A stretch of DNA of 64,000 nucleotides, from the NCBI GenBank assembly GCA_027314645.1, contig DAHVAL010000001.1, positions 1-64,000 on the forward strand. Direction: 5' to 3'. The position numbers and the translations under genes are program-made. Numbering within the stretch: position 1 is the first letter of the stretch; each line of letters begins with the position of its first letter. The notes beneath the pieces were generated by a model, which did not search any database, was not told the DNA's origin, and saw only the letters and a list, made by a program, of their open reading frames with translations. Shown here piece by piece: positions 38,645-47,328 of the stretch. The stretch is from Nitrospirota bacterium (GTDB lineage: Bacteria; Nitrospirota; Leptospirillia; Leptospirillales; Leptospirillaceae).

Positions 38645-38945
38645 GTGCGGGTTCCGATTAAAATATTGAAACTTCCCGATTTATTCCCCTTCTGGTCTGG
38701 ACATCGGGGGGAGGGTATGCTATATTCCTCCTCCAAGCTTCCCTAGGTTTTGTGAGTGCCTTATTATCCCCATGAGAAAATATTGAGATGTCTAAAACAT
38801 TAAATGTGCGATGGTTTCCTTATGTCTTTTGGAGTCAAAGAATTCTCTGAGGAGCGGCCATAAGGAGTAACCCAAAGGGGAATCCGGCGGGACCGGTTTC
38901 AAAACAGTCATCATTTTTCATAGATTATGAAAGCTTTCATGGTGC
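38645..38945. other. Intergenic region before the efflux genes
   Basis: 301 bp without a gene. It includes GTATGCTATATTCC near 38715, a possible -10 region (CTGGAC / 18 bp / TATATT), and at its 3' end the first two of the three tandem palindromes described separately. Confidence 0.45.
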
Positions 38946-38970
38946 ATGAAACATTTCATAGACTATGAAA
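38916..38970 (+). promoter_or_regulatory. Three tandem 17-bp palindromes, period 19 bp (operator array)
   Basis: TTTCATAGATTATGAAA (38916-38932), TTTCATGGTGCATGAAA (38935-38951) and TTTCATAGACTATGAAA (38954-38970), each separated by 2 bp. Arms are perfect inverted repeats (7, 6 and 7 bp). A half-site TTTCA occurs one period upstream at 38897. The array overlaps the proposed ATG of the efflux adaptor (38946), as expected for a repressor that blocks transcription or translation. No regulator gene is adjacent. Confidence 0.75.
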
Positions 38971-40067
38971 GCATTCGAAAGTTGGCGGTGAAACTAAATC
39001 TTTCCAGGAACAATATTCTTCTCATTTTTATTTCCGTTGTCTTGTTCGTGGCGGGAATTTTTTTCGGTTTCCAGCTTAAATCCCCCAAGGTCTCCGACAC
39101 ACCTTCAGAAAATGCGTCTCTTCCCTTTAATCCGAAACGATTCCGGATCGGCCATGTCAAATATCGCCATTTCGAACTCTGGACCTCCATTCCGGGAGTG
39201 ATTCACGGCTTTCGAAAAGTGGTGGTCTATGGCCATGTTCCCGGGTATCTCAAATTCTTAAACGTCGACAAGGGAGACTGGGTCAAGAGAGGGCAGGTTC
39301 TGGGGTATATCTACGATCCCGAGCTCTACCAGAGCTGGCAGCGCGCCCTGGCGATGGCGGCCATCGCCCACATCACCTTTCTCCGGAAATATCGCGTCTG
39401 GGAAGGGGACCATCGGGTCATCTCCCTGCAACGGGTCCAGATGGCGGAAGCCATCTGGAAGGAGCGGGAAGCCCAGGCCCGTTATTATCGGTCTCTTGTC
39501 CGGTACAAAACGATCGTCGCCCCCTTTTCGGGAGTCATCACCCATCGCTACGTCGATCCCTGGAATCTCGTCTCCAGCGGGACGGGTGGAACCTCCTTCG
39601 CCCTTCCCATCGTCAAGATCGAGGATGCCGATGAAATGCGGCTCTATGTGGGAGTTCCGGACCGCTACGTCCGGTACGTGAAGCGGGGTCTTTCCGTCGA
39701 GCTTCGCGTCCAGGGCCTTCCTGGGCAAGTCTTCAAGGCCCATGTGACGCGCTTCGCCTTTCGTCTTAATCCCGAGACCCGGACAATGCGAACCGAGATC
39801 GATATTGAGAACCCGAAGCATCTCCTTCAGCCGGGGATGTTCGTCGACACTCGGATCCGCCTTCATGTCTATCCCCACGTCCTGTCGGTCCATCACATGG
39901 CGGTGGTGGAGGAGCGGCACGGGAATTTCATCAAGATTCTCCGGGATGGGAAGGTCATCAAGAGTCCCGTCCTGGTCGGGATTCGAAACGGAGACTATAC
40001 AGAAATACTTCAAGGTCTCAATGGATCCGAAACTGTCCTTGTGAAGCTCCACAAGACCATATTCTGA
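38946..40067 (+). CDS. RND/HlyD-type periplasmic adaptor 1
   Basis: 373 residues; N-terminal anchor helix (ILLIFISVVLFVAGIFFGF). Adaptor signatures: GHVPGYLKFLNVDKGDWVKR (biotinyl-lipoyl strand), coiled hairpin around residues 125-190, YKTIVAPFSGVITHRYVDPW, and the membrane-proximal ETRTMRTEIDIENP. It links an inner-membrane RND pump to a TolC channel. The ATG at 38946 has no clear ribosome-binding site and lies in the operator array; a GTG at 38988 would place the array wholly upstream and is a real alternative. Paralogue of the adaptor at 44523. Confidence 0.9.
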   Translation: MKHFIDYESIRKLAVKLNLSRNNILLIFISVVLFVAGIFFGFQLKSPKVSDTPSENASLPFNPKRFRIGHVKYRHFELWTSIPGVIHGFRKVVVYGHVPGYLKFLNVDKGDWVKRGQVLGYIYDPELYQSWQRALAMAAIAHITFLRKYRVWEGDHRVISLQRVQMAEAIWKEREAQARYYRSLVRYKTIVAPFSGVITHRYVDPWNLVSSGTGGTSFALPIVKIEDADEMRLYVGVPDRYVRYVKRGLSVELRVQGLPGQVFKAHVTRFAFRLNPETRTMRTEIDIENPKHLLQPGMFVDTRIRLHVYPHVLSVHHMAVVEERHGNFIKILRDGKVIKSPVLVGIRNGDYTEILQGLNGSETVLVKLHKTIF

Positions 40068-40120: not shown

Positions 40121-43100
40121 ATGTTTTTAGTCAAGATGTCCCTCAAGAGCCCTTATTCGATCATCGCCATGGCGCTGGCCATCGTGCTTTTGGGCTCGGA
40201 GAGCCTCTCTTCCATGAACGTCTCCATCCTTCCGCGGATTCCCCTTCCGATCGTCGAGGTTCTCACCGTCTTCCCGGGGATGAACGTCTACAACACCGAA
40301 ATGGACATCACCGAGCAGATGGAGCGCATCATCCTCCAGGCGCCCTATATCCGGTCGATCAAGTCGGAAAGCCTGGTGGGCATCAGCATGATCCAGATCC
40401 GCTTCCGGTCGACCTATTCGCTCTCCGCCGGGGTGTCGATGGTGACCTCGCTCGTGTATTCGTCCATGAAATACCTTCCTCCGGGGATTTTTCCTCCCAT
40501 CATCATCCCCTTCGGGGTTTCGGCCATTCCGATCGCCGACCTGGTGCTCTCCTCGAAGGAACTGACCCAGATGCAGATGTTCGACATCGGATACTTCAAT
40601 GTCCGGTCGCAGATGGGAACCATTCAGGGGGTGGCGGCCCCGCCCGTGTTCGGAGGACTCTCGCGCCAGATCCAGGTCTTTACGAACAACACTGCCCTTC
40701 TGGCGCGCGGCCTCACCATCTGGGACGTGGTGAACGCCTTGAATCGCCAAAACATCATCTGGCCGGCGGGGTTCGCCAAGATCGGGGATATGAGCTACAA
40801 CGTCTTCGTCAATGCGCTTTTGGGGCCCGTGCCGACGATCGGGGATGTGCCGGTCAAGGTCGAGAACGGCCAGCCGGTCTTCATCAAGGACATTGGAACG
40901 GCCAAGGACTCCTACCGTATCCAGACCAACCCCGTCCGTGTCGACGGAAGAAAATCGGTCTACATCCCGATCTTAAAGCAGGAAGGGGCCAACACCGTGA
41001 AGGTGATCGACGCGACCCAGACGGCGATCAAGACCTTCTACGGGCTTCCCAAGAGTCTTGACATCTCGCTGATCTTCGACCAGTCGGTCTACATCCGGGA
41101 TTCGGTGGCGTCGCTCGAGCGGGAGGGGATCATCGGCATCATCCTGACGGCCTTGATGATCCTGATCTTTTTGGGAAATATCCGGTCGACCCTGATCATC
41201 TCCACCTCCATCCCCCTGTCTCTTTTGGTGGGGTTCGTCATGCTGAACGCCACCGGCCAGACGATCAACATCATGACCCTGGGGGGCCTGGCCTTGGCCA
41301 TTGGACGTCTGGTGGACGACGCGATCGTGGTGCTCGAGAACACCAACCGGCATCTTGAAATGGGGAAGGAGCCGTCCCAGGCCGCTCTTGACGGGGCGGG
41401 GGAAGTGGCCATGCCGGTCATGGCCTCGACGATCGCCACCATGATCGTGTTCTCGCCGGTGCTCTTCCTTCTGGGAAAAGGGAAATACCTCTTTACCCCC
41501 TTGGCCGCCGCCGTCGCCTATTCGATGATGGCCTCCTACTTCGTCTCCATGACCCTGGTGCCGGTCCTGTCCGCCTGGTTCCTAAAGTCCGAGTCGGCAT
41601 ACCGCCAGAGCCGTTCCCTGTTCCGGAGGGGGGTCGAAAAATTCAACGAATCCTTCAACCGGTTCAAGAACCTCTACCGGGACTATCTAAAGATCGCGCT
41701 TCGCCACCGGGGTCCGGTCTCCCTCATGATCCTTCTCGCCTTCATCGGATCGTTTTTCCTGTTTTCCCGCATCGGGTCGGAGTATTTCCCTCCCGACGAC
41801 ACGGGGGCCTTCATCATCCAGATGCGCCTTCCCATCGGAAGCCGGATCGAAAAGACCGACGGAATCAGCGCCCAGGTCGACGCGGCGATCCGGCGGATCA
41901 TCCCCCAGAAGGACATCGTCCATGTCGTGATCAACGAGGGGGTTCGGCCGGGATGGGACGCCATGTACACCACCAACCTGTGGAGCCACATGGCCCTCAT
42001 CCTGGTCCAGCTCGTCCCGTCGAATGAGCGAAAGCGCTCGATGTGGGAGTTTGAGCATGAGCTCAGGCCGTATCTGAACGCCCATTTTCCGAATGTGGAG
42101 TTCTACTTCGAGTCCTCGTCCATCATCACCCAGATTCTGGCGGGCTCGGGCGAAGCCCCGGTCGATATCCAGCTCCTCGGACCCTCGTACCGGAAGCTCG
42201 GCGAAATCGCGCACGACATCGTCAACCATATCCGCAAGATTCCCGGGACCACCGATGTCCGGGTCAAGCAGAACATCCATTACCCCTCGCTGTTCATCAA
42301 TGTCGACCGGAGCAAGGCCCAGTTCCTGGGGGTGACCGAGCTCGACGTGGAGCGAAACGTCATCACGAGCCTCGTGACCAATGTGGCGATCGGGGAAAAC
42401 TTCTGGGTGGACCAGACCACCGGAAACCCCTATTTCATCACGGCCCAGTATCCCGAGGACAAGATCAATTCGATGGACGCCCTGTCGAACATCCTGGTGC
42501 GCCAGCTCAAACAATCCGACTACTCCGAGTCGGGCGCCAAGAATCCCCCCATTTACCTCCGGGATATCGCCGACATTCGGAGGATTACGATTCCGCCGGC
42601 CATTTTCCACTACAACGTGGAGCGGGTGGCGGACGTTTTTGTCAACGTGACGAATGATCCGGGCGTCTCCTTAGGAGGCGTCGGGAGCCAGATCGACAAG
42701 TTCATGGCCCATTACCAATTTCCCGAGGGGTACAGCTGGCGGGAATCCGGAATGCTGGCGTCGATGCATCGCTCCTTCGGATCGATGGGGCTCGCGGTAC
42801 TCCTGGCCTTGGCCCTGGTCTATCTTGCCCTTGTGGCGCAGTTCCAGTCCTTTCTCGATCCCTTCATCATCATGCTGTCGGTGCCGTTTGGATTGATCGG
42901 GGTCTTTGCCATGCTCTACGCCACCAACACGGGGATCAACGTGGAGTCCCTGATCGGGGTGATCATGGACATCGGGATCGGGGTATCGAACTCGGTCCTT
43001 CTGGTGGAGTTCGCGATCCGCCTTCGGGGCCAGGGGGCCCCCCTCTATCGGTCGGTCGTGGAGGCCGGGGGCACCCGTCTTCGCCCGATCCTGATGACGG

Positions 43101-43306
43101 CGATCGGGACGGTCCTGGCGATGATCCCGACCGCCATCGGGATGGGGGTGGGATCCGGAGCGGAAGAGCCCCTGGCGCGCGCGGTGATCGGGGGATTGAT
43201 GGTCATGACCATCCTGACCCTTGTCCAGGTTCCGATCTTCTTCGTGATGTTCCATACTTGGGAAGACCAATGGAGGGCCTGGAGGGCCTCTCGGGCCTCC
43301 AGATAA
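40121..43306 (+). CDS. RND-family efflux permease
   Basis: 1061 residues, normal for RND pumps. Twelve-helix layout with two large periplasmic loops. TM4 shows GRLVDDAIVVLENTNRH with the proton-relay Asp399-Asp400. The closest type is HAE1/CzcA-like with unknown substrate; CzcA-type metal-binding motifs are not evident. Start ATG at 40121, 53 bp after adaptor 1. A bidirectional terminator follows. The C-terminus has a short repeat (WRAWRASRASR). It uses proton-motive force, so in an acidophile it would have a steep gradient. Confidence 0.93.
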   Translation: MFLVKMSLKSPYSIIAMALAIVLLGSESLSSMNVSILPRIPLPIVEVLTVFPGMNVYNTEMDITEQMERIILQAPYIRSIKSESLVGISMIQIRFRSTYSLSAGVSMVTSLVYSSMKYLPPGIFPPIIIPFGVSAIPIADLVLSSKELTQMQMFDIGYFNVRSQMGTIQGVAAPPVFGGLSRQIQVFTNNTALLARGLTIWDVVNALNRQNIIWPAGFAKIGDMSYNVFVNALLGPVPTIGDVPVKVENGQPVFIKDIGTAKDSYRIQTNPVRVDGRKSVYIPILKQEGANTVKVIDATQTAIKTFYGLPKSLDISLIFDQSVYIRDSVASLEREGIIGIILTALMILIFLGNIRSTLIISTSIPLSLLVGFVMLNATGQTINIMTLGGLALAIGRLVDDAIVVLENTNRHLEMGKEPSQAALDGAGEVAMPVMASTIATMIVFSPVLFLLGKGKYLFTPLAAAVAYSMMASYFVSMTLVPVLSAWFLKSESAYRQSRSLFRRGVEKFNESFNRFKNLYRDYLKIALRHRGPVSLMILLAFIGSFFLFSRIGSEYFPPDDTGAFIIQMRLPIGSRIEKTDGISAQVDAAIRRIIPQKDIVHVVINEGVRPGWDAMYTTNLWSHMALILVQLVPSNERKRSMWEFEHELRPYLNAHFPNVEFYFESSSIITQILAGSGEAPVDIQLLGPSYRKLGEIAHDIVNHIRKIPGTTDVRVKQNIHYPSLFINVDRSKAQFLGVTELDVERNVITSLVTNVAIGENFWVDQTTGNPYFITAQYPEDKINSMDALSNILVRQLKQSDYSESGAKNPPIYLRDIADIRRITIPPAIFHYNVERVADVFVNVTNDPGVSLGGVGSQIDKFMAHYQFPEGYSWRESGMLASMHRSFGSMGLAVLLALALVYLALVAQFQSFLDPFIIMLSVPFGLIGVFAMLYATNTGINVESLIGVIMDIGIGVSNSVLLVEFAIRLRGQGAPLYRSVVEAGGTRLRPILMTAIGTVLAMIPTAIGMGVGSGAEEPLARAVIGGLMVMTILTLVQVPIFFVMFHTWEDQWRAWRASRASR

Positions 43307-43360: not shown

Positions 43361-44374
43361 CTAGTCCGCCGAATAGAAGGGGAAGTCCGACACGTCGAAC
43401 TTCTGCCCCGCCCCGTCGATGAGGACGGTTCCGGAATCCCAGTGGTTCCGTTTGATGTAGCCCAAGCCCAGAGAGCACCCGGCGGCCTGGGAAAAGGCGA
43501 GACTGGTGAGGATTCCGGCGTCGGCGCCATCGACGGTGGAAAAGAGGTTGCGGGGACAGGAAAGGTCGGAAAGTGCGTCCTTCTGAGACCTCAATCCCAC
43601 GAGCTTCCGCGAGAGCTGCCCTTGGAACTTGAGCCGGGTCACAGGCTCCTGGCCCACATAGCAGCCCTTGTTGTAGGAAACCGCAAGGGAGTCGAGGCCG
43701 GCCTCGGCCGGAAAATGCCCTTCGTTCAATTCAGTCGGGGGAAGCGGAATTCCCTGTTCGAGGCGGTATGTCTCCAATCCGAGGGGGTCGAGGCGCATCC
43801 CTCCGGCGGAAAGGACGCGACGCTCAAGGGTTGCGGCGGCTTCTTCAAATTGATCCTTTGGAATCCACACGTCGATCCAGGGGCCGGCATCCCGTTCGTA
43901 GGCGAATCTGTGGGGCCGAAGAAACGCCAGCCCTCCGGAGGAAAGGGTCCTGAGCCCATCTCCTCCCGATTCGGCCGAGAAGAGAGGCATCGCCAGGGAA
44001 GGAGCTTCCAGGCCGACCAGGGTCAGGCTTCGGTAAGAGTCGGTGAGGGAGGTGATCGTCGCCCGGGTCCGGAAGAACAAGTATTTTTTGAGATGGGACA
44101 CGAAGTCCGCCTCAGAAGCCCCGGACGGCGAGAGGAGAAAATCCCCCGGGCGGGCGGCGATCCAGGAGTCGAAGAGGATGCGGGCTTTGGGATTGAGAAA
44201 AAATCCGTATTTGATGGTCCCTTCTTCCTGGGAGGCCACATCCTGGCTTAGAAGTCCCTGGAGGTAGCTGATCCGGTCCTCTCCGGAAATCGAGAGAAGT
44301 GGCCGGGAGGTGTCGGGGAAAAACAATCCGGCGTGCAGATGGGCCGGACGGGTATTGATCGGACCTGTCATCAT
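43361..44374 (-). CDS. ygfZ: YgfZ/GcvT-like folate-binding protein
   Basis: 337 residues. Start ATG at 44372-44374 with AAGGAG upstream; longer frames to 44410 or 44548 are possible but lack a better signal. The diagnostic K-G-C-Y-x-G-Q-E motif is present in SYNKGCYVGQEPVTRLK, with GEDRISYLQGLLSQDV near the N-terminus. YgfZ proteins use tetrahydrofolate to help maintain iron-sulfur enzymes. It is antisense to, and sits between, the two halves of the efflux system, so it is probably unrelated to efflux. Confidence 0.88.
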   Translation of the reverse strand: MMTGPINTRPAHLHAGLFFPDTSRPLLSISGEDRISYLQGLLSQDVASQEEGTIKYGFFLNPKARILFDSWIAARPGDFLLSPSGASEADFVSHLKKYLFFRTRATITSLTDSYRSLTLVGLEAPSLAMPLFSAESGGDGLRTLSSGGLAFLRPHRFAYERDAGPWIDVWIPKDQFEEAAATLERRVLSAGGMRLDPLGLETYRLEQGIPLPPTELNEGHFPAEAGLDSLAVSYNKGCYVGQEPVTRLKFQGQLSRKLVGLRSQKDALSDLSCPRNLFSTVDGADAGILTSLAFSQAAGCSLGLGYIKRNHWDSGTVLIDGAGQKFDVSDFPFYSAD

Positions 44375-44522
44375 CGGGTTCGGGCTCCTTCGGGCCGGAA
44401 AAAGGGCCATGGGCCCCCGGCGCAAGAATCGGGTTGAATGTTTTGCGTCATCTGCTGATATTAGGGAGAAAAATGGAATGGTGTCAATGAATAGCGAAAA
44501 ATGCGTTTGAAAGGGGATGCCG

Positions 44523-45755
44523 ATGAGTGAATCCGCCTCTTCACACAATCAGGAACCCGATTCCGGTCATTCGCCGGTCGAGGATCACGAATCCTTCCGT
44601 CCGGAATGGGTCAACGAGGTCGACCTTTTCGATATCCATCTCCCGCGCCTCGCCAGAAACATTGTTCTGACGATCTTTGCCGTATTGATCATCGGGCCTG
44701 TGCTCGTCTTCTCCTACTACTGGGTCTTTCCCCCAACGCCCCCGAAGATCCCTAAAGAGACGGTCCAGATCATTAAAATCCGGTTGCGGACCCTTCGCCA
44801 CAAGGTGACCGTTCCCGCCGGCATCGAGTCCTTCCGGAAGACGATTCTCTATGCCCACGTTCCCGGATATCTCAAGTTCCTGAACGTGGACAAGGGGGAT
44901 TATGTCCACAAGGGGCAGGTCCTGGCCTATATCCAGGACCCTGAACTCTACCAGACCTATCAGCGGACAGTGGCCCGGGTCCGGATCGCCGACCTGACCT
45001 ATCACAGGATCAAGCATGTATGGCTCGATCATCCGGCCCTCATCTCCAAGGAACGGGTCCAGCAGAAATTGGCCTCCTATCTCAAGTCCGTCGCCGAAAT
45101 GCGCCATGAGGAGGCGCTGATCGCTTATAAGACGATCGCCGCCCCCTTCGATGGAATGATCACCCAGCGGTTCGTCGATCCGGGAAAGCTTCTCTCGGAG
45201 GGAACCAACGCCACGACGACGGCCCAGCCTATCGTGACGATCGAGCAGATCGACTTCCTCCGTGCCTTCGTCTGGGTTCCGGCCGACGTGGCCCCGATCA
45301 TCAAGAGAGGGCAGAAGGTGGAGGTCCACTTTTCGGGCCTTCCCGGAAAAACATTCTGGGGACGGGTTGCCAGGTACGATTTTGCCGAAGACCAAAAGAC
45401 CCGGACCATGCGGACCGAGGTGGACCTGGACAATCCGGGATTTGAAATCCATCCCGGCATGTACGGAAAATTCACCTTTTATCTTGAAGAATTCAAGGAT
45501 GCCGTGGTGATTCCGGGAATGGCGATCATGGCGCGGCGGGACAAACCCTATTCGGTCATGACGGTCAAGGACGGGAAAGCCCATGAGGTTCCAGTGACCC
45601 TGGGGATCGACAACGCCAAGTGGGTTCAGGTTCTGACCGGCCTGTCGGCCGGGGATCAGCTTGTTTTAGCCGGCAAGTGGCATGTCCACTCGGGTGAGCC
45701 TGTCAATGTCGTTCCCTTTAAGCCCGTGCCGTTCCGACCGGCCACCCAGCTCTAA
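44523..45755 (+). CDS. RND/HlyD-type periplasmic adaptor 2
   Basis: 410 residues from the ATG at 44523 (AAAGGGG 7 nt upstream; an ATG at 44517 is too close). It has a long acidic cytosolic N-terminus, one anchor helix (IVLTIFAVLIIGPVLVFSYY), then the adaptor fold with AHVPGYLKFLNVDKGDYVHK, YKTIAAPFDGMITQRFVDPG and TRTMRTEVDLDNPG. Clearly paralogous to adaptor 1. No permease follows; a TolC gene does. It probably works with the RND permease upstream or one elsewhere. Confidence 0.9.
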   Translation: MSESASSHNQEPDSGHSPVEDHESFRPEWVNEVDLFDIHLPRLARNIVLTIFAVLIIGPVLVFSYYWVFPPTPPKIPKETVQIIKIRLRTLRHKVTVPAGIESFRKTILYAHVPGYLKFLNVDKGDYVHKGQVLAYIQDPELYQTYQRTVARVRIADLTYHRIKHVWLDHPALISKERVQQKLASYLKSVAEMRHEEALIAYKTIAAPFDGMITQRFVDPGKLLSEGTNATTTAQPIVTIEQIDFLRAFVWVPADVAPIIKRGQKVEVHFSGLPGKTFWGRVARYDFAEDQKTRTMRTEVDLDNPGFEIHPGMYGKFTFYLEEFKDAVVIPGMAIMARRDKPYSVMTVKDGKAHEVPVTLGIDNAKWVQVLTGLSAGDQLVLAGKWHVHSGEPVNVVPFKPVPFRPATQL

Positions 45756-45813
45756 TGAACCTTCGGAGACGGGTCCGCTCCGGTTCCGGAACATTTTGGA
45801 AGGATCGCAAACC

Positions 45814-47328
45814 ATGACTTTTTTGAGAGAGGCCGGGAAAGTCCGGCCCTATAAACCCCTGAGACCATTGGCGGGAGGGGTCGCGACCGTCGGGAGCTTT
45901 TGCTTCGCCGTTCTCATGTTAATGGCGACGATGCCGGTCTATGCCGACACGATATCCCAGACGGAGATCTCAAGCGGGGATGTTCCCCCCCCAATCATGT
46001 CCGTCGACCAGGCGGTCTTGTTCGGGCTCACGCATCACCCGAAACTGTTCTGGTTTCGCCACACGGTCAAGAAGAAAGGGGCTCGGGTCAAGGTTTCAAA
46101 ATCCCATTTTTATCCCCATGTCGGCGTGGGGGCGATGTACGGGATCGCCAATCCCGGTCTCGGCAACGAATTCATCAACAACCTGAACTTCGTGACCCCG
46201 GTCTTTCCCATGGACTATACCAAGATGGGCCCGCTCTCCGCTCCGAACGAGCCGGCCGCTCTCGCGACGATCGGCGTCAACCAGCTCCTGCTCGACTTCG
46301 GCAAGTTCGAGCACCGGGTCAAGCAGCGTCTCGCGGGCAAACGGGCCTCCGAGTTCTGGCTCTACAGCCAGGATGCCTGGGTCATTCTCCAGGTGAAGGA
46401 AGCCTACTTCCATGTCCTTCTCGACCGGAAGCTGATCGAGGTGTACGAAAAGAATCTTGAGCAGAGAAAGCTTGTGAAGAATCTGACGGAGGCGCTCTAC
46501 GAGTCCGATTACCGCTCCCAGCTCGACTACGATCTGGCCAAGGTCGACTACGAAAAAGCCCGGGCATTGCTCGATTCCGAGAAGGACGATCTCGTGGCCC
46601 AGATCGCCCATTTAAACGATGCCATGGGTCTTGGCCAGTCCGGACGGGAGGACTACCGTCTGACCGGACATCTGGGACAGGTGTCCGATGTGGTGGTGGG
46701 GCGTGACGAGGCGGTGACGCGGGGGCTCACCTACCGGCCGGAGATCAATGCCTACCGGAACCTCTTCCGGCAGGAAAAAGAGCGGACCCGATTCATGCGG
46801 GCCCAGCACTATCCCCTGATTTCCGCTTTCGGCAACTACGGCTTCATGGCCAACCTGGTGACCAGTCAAAGTTATGTTCCCGGCATGTGGTCGGGGGGCG
46901 GCACGATCACCGTACCCATCTACACCGGCGGAATGATCCGGGGCGAGACCGAACGGGCCCATGAACAGTCCCGGGAGCGTCAATACGGGATCTCCGACTG
47001 GTCCCACAATATCCGATACCAAATCGTCCGGGCCCGGGCCCGGATACTGTCCGACCTTGCGGACATCCGGGCCTACACCGAGGCGGTGAAGGAGGCCAAT
47101 CTCGCCCTGGTGCTTGCCAACAAGCGCTATTCCGCGAACCTCATCTCCATCGTCGACCTCACCTTGGCCGAGGTCTATCTTCTGAACACCGAAGCCGCTC
47201 TCGCCACCTACCAGTACCAGTATCAGGTGGATCGGGCCACGCTTCGATTTGCCGAAGGGGTGGATTATTTGGGCTATCTTCCGGAGGTCCGGAAAAAGGT
47301 CGTGGGGCACATCTCCGAAAAGAATTAG
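45814..47328 (+). CDS. TolC-family outer-membrane channel
   Basis: 504 residues; ATG at 45814 preceded by GGAAGGATCGCAAACC. Signal peptide ends near VYADT. Repeated TolC helical-hairpin layout, with SVDQAVLFGLTHHPKLFW, conserved NQLLLDFGKFEHRVKQR and the second-repeat NKRYSANLISIVDLTLAEVY. Trimeric outer-membrane exit duct for the efflux system. 58 bp after adaptor 2. Confidence 0.92.
   Translation: MTFLREAGKVRPYKPLRPLAGGVATVGSFCFAVLMLMATMPVYADTISQTEISSGDVPPPIMSVDQAVLFGLTHHPKLFWFRHTVKKKGARVKVSKSHFYPHVGVGAMYGIANPGLGNEFINNLNFVTPVFPMDYTKMGPLSAPNEPAALATIGVNQLLLDFGKFEHRVKQRLAGKRASEFWLYSQDAWVILQVKEAYFHVLLDRKLIEVYEKNLEQRKLVKNLTEALYESDYRSQLDYDLAKVDYEKARALLDSEKDDLVAQIAHLNDAMGLGQSGREDYRLTGHLGQVSDVVVGRDEAVTRGLTYRPEINAYRNLFRQEKERTRFMRAQHYPLISAFGNYGFMANLVTSQSYVPGMWSGGGTITVPIYTGGMIRGETERAHEQSRERQYGISDWSHNIRYQIVRARARILSDLADIRAYTEAVKEANLALVLANKRYSANLISIVDLTLAEVYLLNTEAALATYQYQYQVDRATLRFAEGVDYLGYLPEVRKKVVGHISEKN

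Follow-up and report, generated by a model that had tools for sequence, protein, structure and literature searches.

The window analysed here, a 64,000-nucleotide stretch of contig DAHVAL010000001.1 from a Nitrospirota bacterium, contains a set of RND efflux genes preceded by an array of three exact TTTCATN5ATGAAA palindromes. The initial annotation had proposed three phased palindromes of 17 bp, separated by 2-bp gaps and thus repeating every 19 bp, at the start of an efflux gene, and on reading the sequence we found all of them at 38916-38970. The features of the locus are as follows.

38698..38726, plus strand: candidate promoter P1 (TGGACA, 17 bp, TATATT, with TG before the second hexamer), from a consensus scan and a simple weight matrix
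38881..38899, plus strand: CCGG-N5-CCGG inverted repeat, retained in the window genome's clade but not outside it
38897..38913, no strand: degenerate fourth half-site, TTTCAA in the window genome and TTTCATGAC in some relatives
38916..38932, no strand: palindrome 1, TTTCATAGATTATGAAA, centre at -64 from the GTG, its 12 arm bases invariant in 12 species
38935..38951, no strand: palindrome 2, TTTCATGGTGCATGAAA, centre at -45 from the GTG
38954..38970, no strand: palindrome 3, TTTCATAGACTATGAAA, centre at -26 from the GTG
38977..38981, plus strand: GAAAG, probable weak ribosome-binding site, invariant in the alignment
38988..40067, plus strand: RND periplasmic adaptor MFP1, 359 aa from GTG
40121..43306, plus strand: RND permease, ACR_tran
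43361-44548, minus strand: YgfZ/GcvT-like folate-binding gene, between the permease and the second adaptor
44517..45755, plus strand: second RND adaptor, MFP2
45682..47328, plus strand: outer-membrane efflux protein

The gene downstream of the array is indeed an efflux gene, as had been claimed: the adaptor scored 158.9 bits against TIGR01730, above the curated cut-off of 94.9. The permease stayed below every NCBIfam subfamily cut-off, and its substrate is therefore not assignable. Throughout the genus, the gene order is GH57 glycosidase, array, adaptor, RND permease, YgfZ-like gene on the minus strand, second adaptor and outer-membrane channel; in the window's clade, a DUF4384 lipoprotein gene lies between the glycosidase and the array. 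The reversed YgfZ/GcvT-like gene is also found at this place in the other genera whose loci cover it. None of the neighbours examined was recognisable as a regulator gene, in agreement with the initial annotation, and a regulator between the pump genes was rejected as the frame there is YgfZ/GcvT-like. The open papers searched held nothing on RND pump regulation in these uncultured Nitrospirota.

The array had also been thought to cover an ATG start codon. An ATG does lie inside it, at 38946, but the conserved start is the GTG at 38988, 17 bp past the array, a distance shared by all 12 species. In the 11 other species, an in-frame TGA separates the ATG of site 2 from the adaptor gene; the window genome alone has CGA at this position, which makes its longer frame look real. 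The protein read from the GTG begins with a short basic stretch followed by a hydrophobic helix, typical of such adaptors (in genome G012 the frame is broken after the GTG and the N-terminus is unreadable). Given the shared GTG and the TGA of the relatives after the site-2 ATG, no part of the array falls within the conserved coding sequence, which begins downstream of it. This corrected start codon is relevant to anyone expressing the adaptor.

Conservation and uniqueness of the array

To locate orthologous loci, the downstream protein was used as query in 60 related genomes. The genus, possibly related to Leptospirillum, consists of Nitrospirota metagenome-assembled genomes, 12 of which, including the window's own, hold the 5ʹ end of the adaptor gene. 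All 12 carried the triplet, with the period of 19 bp and the distance to the GTG constant, so the array was present in every upstream region of the genus that could be read, where its absence from all of them would have spoken against the original proposal. The two congeners lacking the triplet have incomplete assemblies, from which a close adaptor orthologue is missing as well.

In an ungapped 76-bp alignment of the 12 species, all 36 arm bases were invariant, as was the GC dinucleotide that follows each of sites 1 and 3. Variation was found in parts of the site middles and in the spacer between sites 2 and 3. Every site had a half-site gap of 5 in each of the 12 species, and the middle of palindrome 2 (GG.G) was unlike those of sites 1 and 3 in every species aligned. 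Elsewhere, 12% of the third-codon positions of the adaptor and 4% of 120 upstream bases were invariant. The array was the best-conserved 55-bp window of the 1.6-kb locus, with 48 invariant columns against 39 in the runner-up, which is coding. The third-codon rate raised to the power 36 gives about 3e-34, a figure that indicates scale and not probability, as the species are related.

A half-site one period upstream of the array had been noted in addition. It is there, as TTTCAA at 38897, but it is imperfect in the window genome and partially conserved: TTTCAT stands at -19 in three relatives and has moved to -17 or -18 in three others, and the half-site is missing from the second clade. The CCGG-N5-CCGG repeat at 38881-38899 has flanking A/T pairing and a loop that changes within the window's clade; it is a candidate weak terminator or another binding site.

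We then searched the whole assembly (2.04 Mb, 69 contigs, 95% complete) for exact TTTCATN5ATGAAA, and the array was its sole place in the genome. The genome scan called for by the initial annotation thus found exact copies confined to the array and no scattering of the triplet. Inexact copies numbered 13 with one mismatch and about 100 with two. The one-mismatch copies that were read lay mostly within reading frames, and no recognisable regulator gene stood behind any of them.

Outside the genus, no exact motif array was detected in 382 other genomes of the phylum. With two adjacent units as one pattern and up to 3 mismatches allowed, 2 of these 382 genomes gave a match, both with 3 mismatches, compared to 1 match for a reversed control pattern. 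Uniqueness in the genome and these counts against the reversed control exclude chance as the origin of the array. It was likewise not found in viral contigs (IMG/VR) or a plasmid collection, and it was missing from the orthologous loci of four other genera, in three of which a glycosidase gene directly precedes the adaptor. Other AT-rich inverted words occur about 150-220 bp before the adaptor match at loci L016, L017 and L018 (AGTCAAATTATTGACT; GTCATTTTATTGACAATATGGCAAATATTG; GTCATTTTTTTGACTATATTTGACGAAATTTTGTC). Such words in the array-less genera of the family are perhaps the operator of another regulator.

Regulator families and known operators

Three regulator families, TetR, MarR and IclR, were searched for in the genus. 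TetR genes were listed in 14 of 14 congeners and MarR genes in 13 of 14. The initial annotation had suggested looking for a MarR, TetR or other regulator with sites at its own gene; neither an exact nor a one-mismatch motif lay beside the sampled TetR and MarR genes of the genus. Near these genes we found weaker copies, one with two mismatches and several with three, whose positions did not recur between species; the two-mismatch copy belongs to the window genome, where it falls within a reading frame close to a MarR gene. With no near-exact motif beside the TetR and MarR genes checked, autoregulation was not seen, which counts against reading the array as an operator.

Local TetR-type repressors of RND pumps include AcrR and MtrR. 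Their systems resemble the array in having a palindromic operator by an RND adaptor gene, with pump repression as the expected outcome; they differ in that the array has no adjacent repressor gene and comprises three identical sites. The TetR gene conserved across the genus is located elsewhere, beside a cytochrome-like gene, and lacks such a site. An RND operon repressed by TetR or MarR was rejected, as the repressor is neither adjacent nor furnished with the same operator among the sampled genes on assembled DNA.

Tandem palindromes are also bound by the IclR family, with centres 18-22 nt apart and mostly at -20 to -80 from the gene start, and with the consensus GKTYCRY W3-4 RYGRAMC or TGRAACA N1-2 TGTTYCA (PMC8222616). 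The array is alike in its period of 19, in its centres at -64, -45 and -26, and in the fit of KTYCRY/RYGRAM to TTTCAT/ATGAAA, but it is unlike these operators in its half-site gap, which is 5 instead of 3-4, and in having three sites (PMC8222616). The KdgR box of this family, RWWGAAACGNCGTTTCAKKA, shares the mirrored GAAA and TTTC half-sites, but in the opposite order (GAAA first) and with a different spacing (PMC8222616). The IclR_C domain (PF01614) was found in 0 of 14 genus genomes, while the control genomes gave matches, and the best HTH_IclR match in the window genome fell within an ATPase-like gene; an IclR-family protein was thus not detected in the genus. Accordingly, an IclR-family operator was rejected on half-site spacing and on the absence of IclR from the genus. 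By analogy of layout, the array may work like an IclR tandem operator without being a member of that class. Searching the literature by motif letters and by organism, we found no paper with this operator in its title or abstract.

Promoter, leader and operator readings

P1, the best conserved candidate promoter, is a promoter by consensus only and lies about 190 bp upstream of the array; all 10 species whose sequence extends far enough upstream have a homologous pair, 205-225 bp ahead of the array. In the window's clade, a further conserved patch follows P1 and precedes the array, at 38760-38815 (ATAAGAAAA..CTTGAG ... TGnTAGGAT in relatives). No promoter overlapping the array was conserved in all species, and none was found on the minus strand either.

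This bears on the possibility that, instead of being a repressor site, the array holds a promoter of the operon that depends on an activator or an alternative sigma factor. ATGACA or GTGACA does stand 17-19 bp before the TATGAA of site 1 in several species of the window's clade, but neither the window genome nor the second clade has this -35-like word, the species share no promoter over the array on either strand, and there is no space for a promoter after it. We consider such an embedded promoter very unlikely. The lack of room before the start codon for a promoter further downstream, on which an activator could act, in turn counts for the operator.

If P1 is the promoter, the array lies within the transcribed leader, and its hairpins, alone or together with an RNA-binding protein, might regulate adaptor translation, either as three small hairpins or as a 40-nt hairpin joining sites 2 and 3 and the flanking GC pairs. 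The position of the array, with the best promoter about 190 bp upstream and the start 17 bp downstream, would suit such a role, and the predicted fold of 38912-38992 was strong (z -3.9; 0 of 200 shuffles as good). Pairing is possible between the two invariant GC dinucleotides that precede site 2 and follow site 3, the variable bases fall mostly in loops or at a helix end, and, judging from the sequence, the GAAAG ribosome-binding site could be paired with CUUUC in site 2. However, palindromic DNA necessarily folds as RNA, so the fold is not independent evidence, and the full leader was ordinary in stability (z -0.9). Compensatory changes were seen in 0 of 21 and 0 of 23 pairs, a weak test since nearly all pairs never vary, and the pairs that do vary (26-30 in the small hairpins, 28-47 in the long one) were broken in part of the species. 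A structural RNA would also need no identical six bases in three hairpins. No Rfam match was found at the array up to E = 1, which counts for an operator and against an RNA element. Control by an RNA leader is therefore improbable, and the six identical half-sites at fixed spacing lead us to prefer one homodimer binding three times over an RNA structure.

Short upstream reading frames begin at the ATGs of the palindromes (window 38927-38990). Coupling of such frames, with their ATGAAA starts, to the GTG might have conserved the array in place of protein binding. One of them, encoding MKCFIGYESD, stops a little way short of the GTG, and the site-3 frame of the window's clade overlaps the start as GTGA. 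Yet most of the second clade has lost the overlapping frame, the other frame has lost its TGA in the window genome, and the frames leave unexplained the invariance at all codon positions and in the left arms. We regard this reading as extremely unlikely.

The array, with its three operator-like sites, is strictly conserved and specific to the genus, and it is of a known kind: as in tandem operators of dimeric repressors, identical palindromes stand at a fixed spacing beside a gene start, with arms conserved beyond neutral sites. Repeated binding of a dimer is the pattern suggested by six identical half-sites that form mirror pairs around less constrained middles. From this arrangement, we consider it probable that the array is a DNA operator through which a trans-acting dimeric regulator represses the RND pump operon. 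In the proposed mechanism, a homodimeric regulator of helix-turn-helix type, encoded elsewhere in the genome, would bind each TTTCATN5ATGAAA, the half-sites of which are 11 bp apart from centre to centre, that is, one helical turn. Being 19 bp apart, the sites would allow adjacent dimers to touch and bind cooperatively. The initial annotation had placed the sites on nearly the same DNA face; 19 bp corresponds to 1.8 turns of B-DNA, so that neighbouring dimers would be about 70 degrees apart, near each other but not on the same face.

Most likely, the bound protein would repress the pump operon, either as a roadblock to polymerase during elongation or by masking an unrecognised promoter in the array, and an inducer would release it. 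Repression is favoured by the position of the array, which comes after the best candidate promoter and is separated from the start codon by just 17 bp, the ribosome-binding site included. The distance of about 190 bp from the best promoter is counted against the operator, as it calls for either a roadblock or a second promoter. A more specific proposal is that an uncharacterised, genus-specific regulator has this operon as its single target and acts by a three-dimer roadblock about 190 bp past the promoter, or else that the array works as part of the mRNA leader, by way of three hairpins that share one sequence; we hold this to be possible, though rather unlikely.

As a single-copy and strictly conserved putative operator, the array would offer a direct bait for the regulator and hence for the signal that switches the pump.
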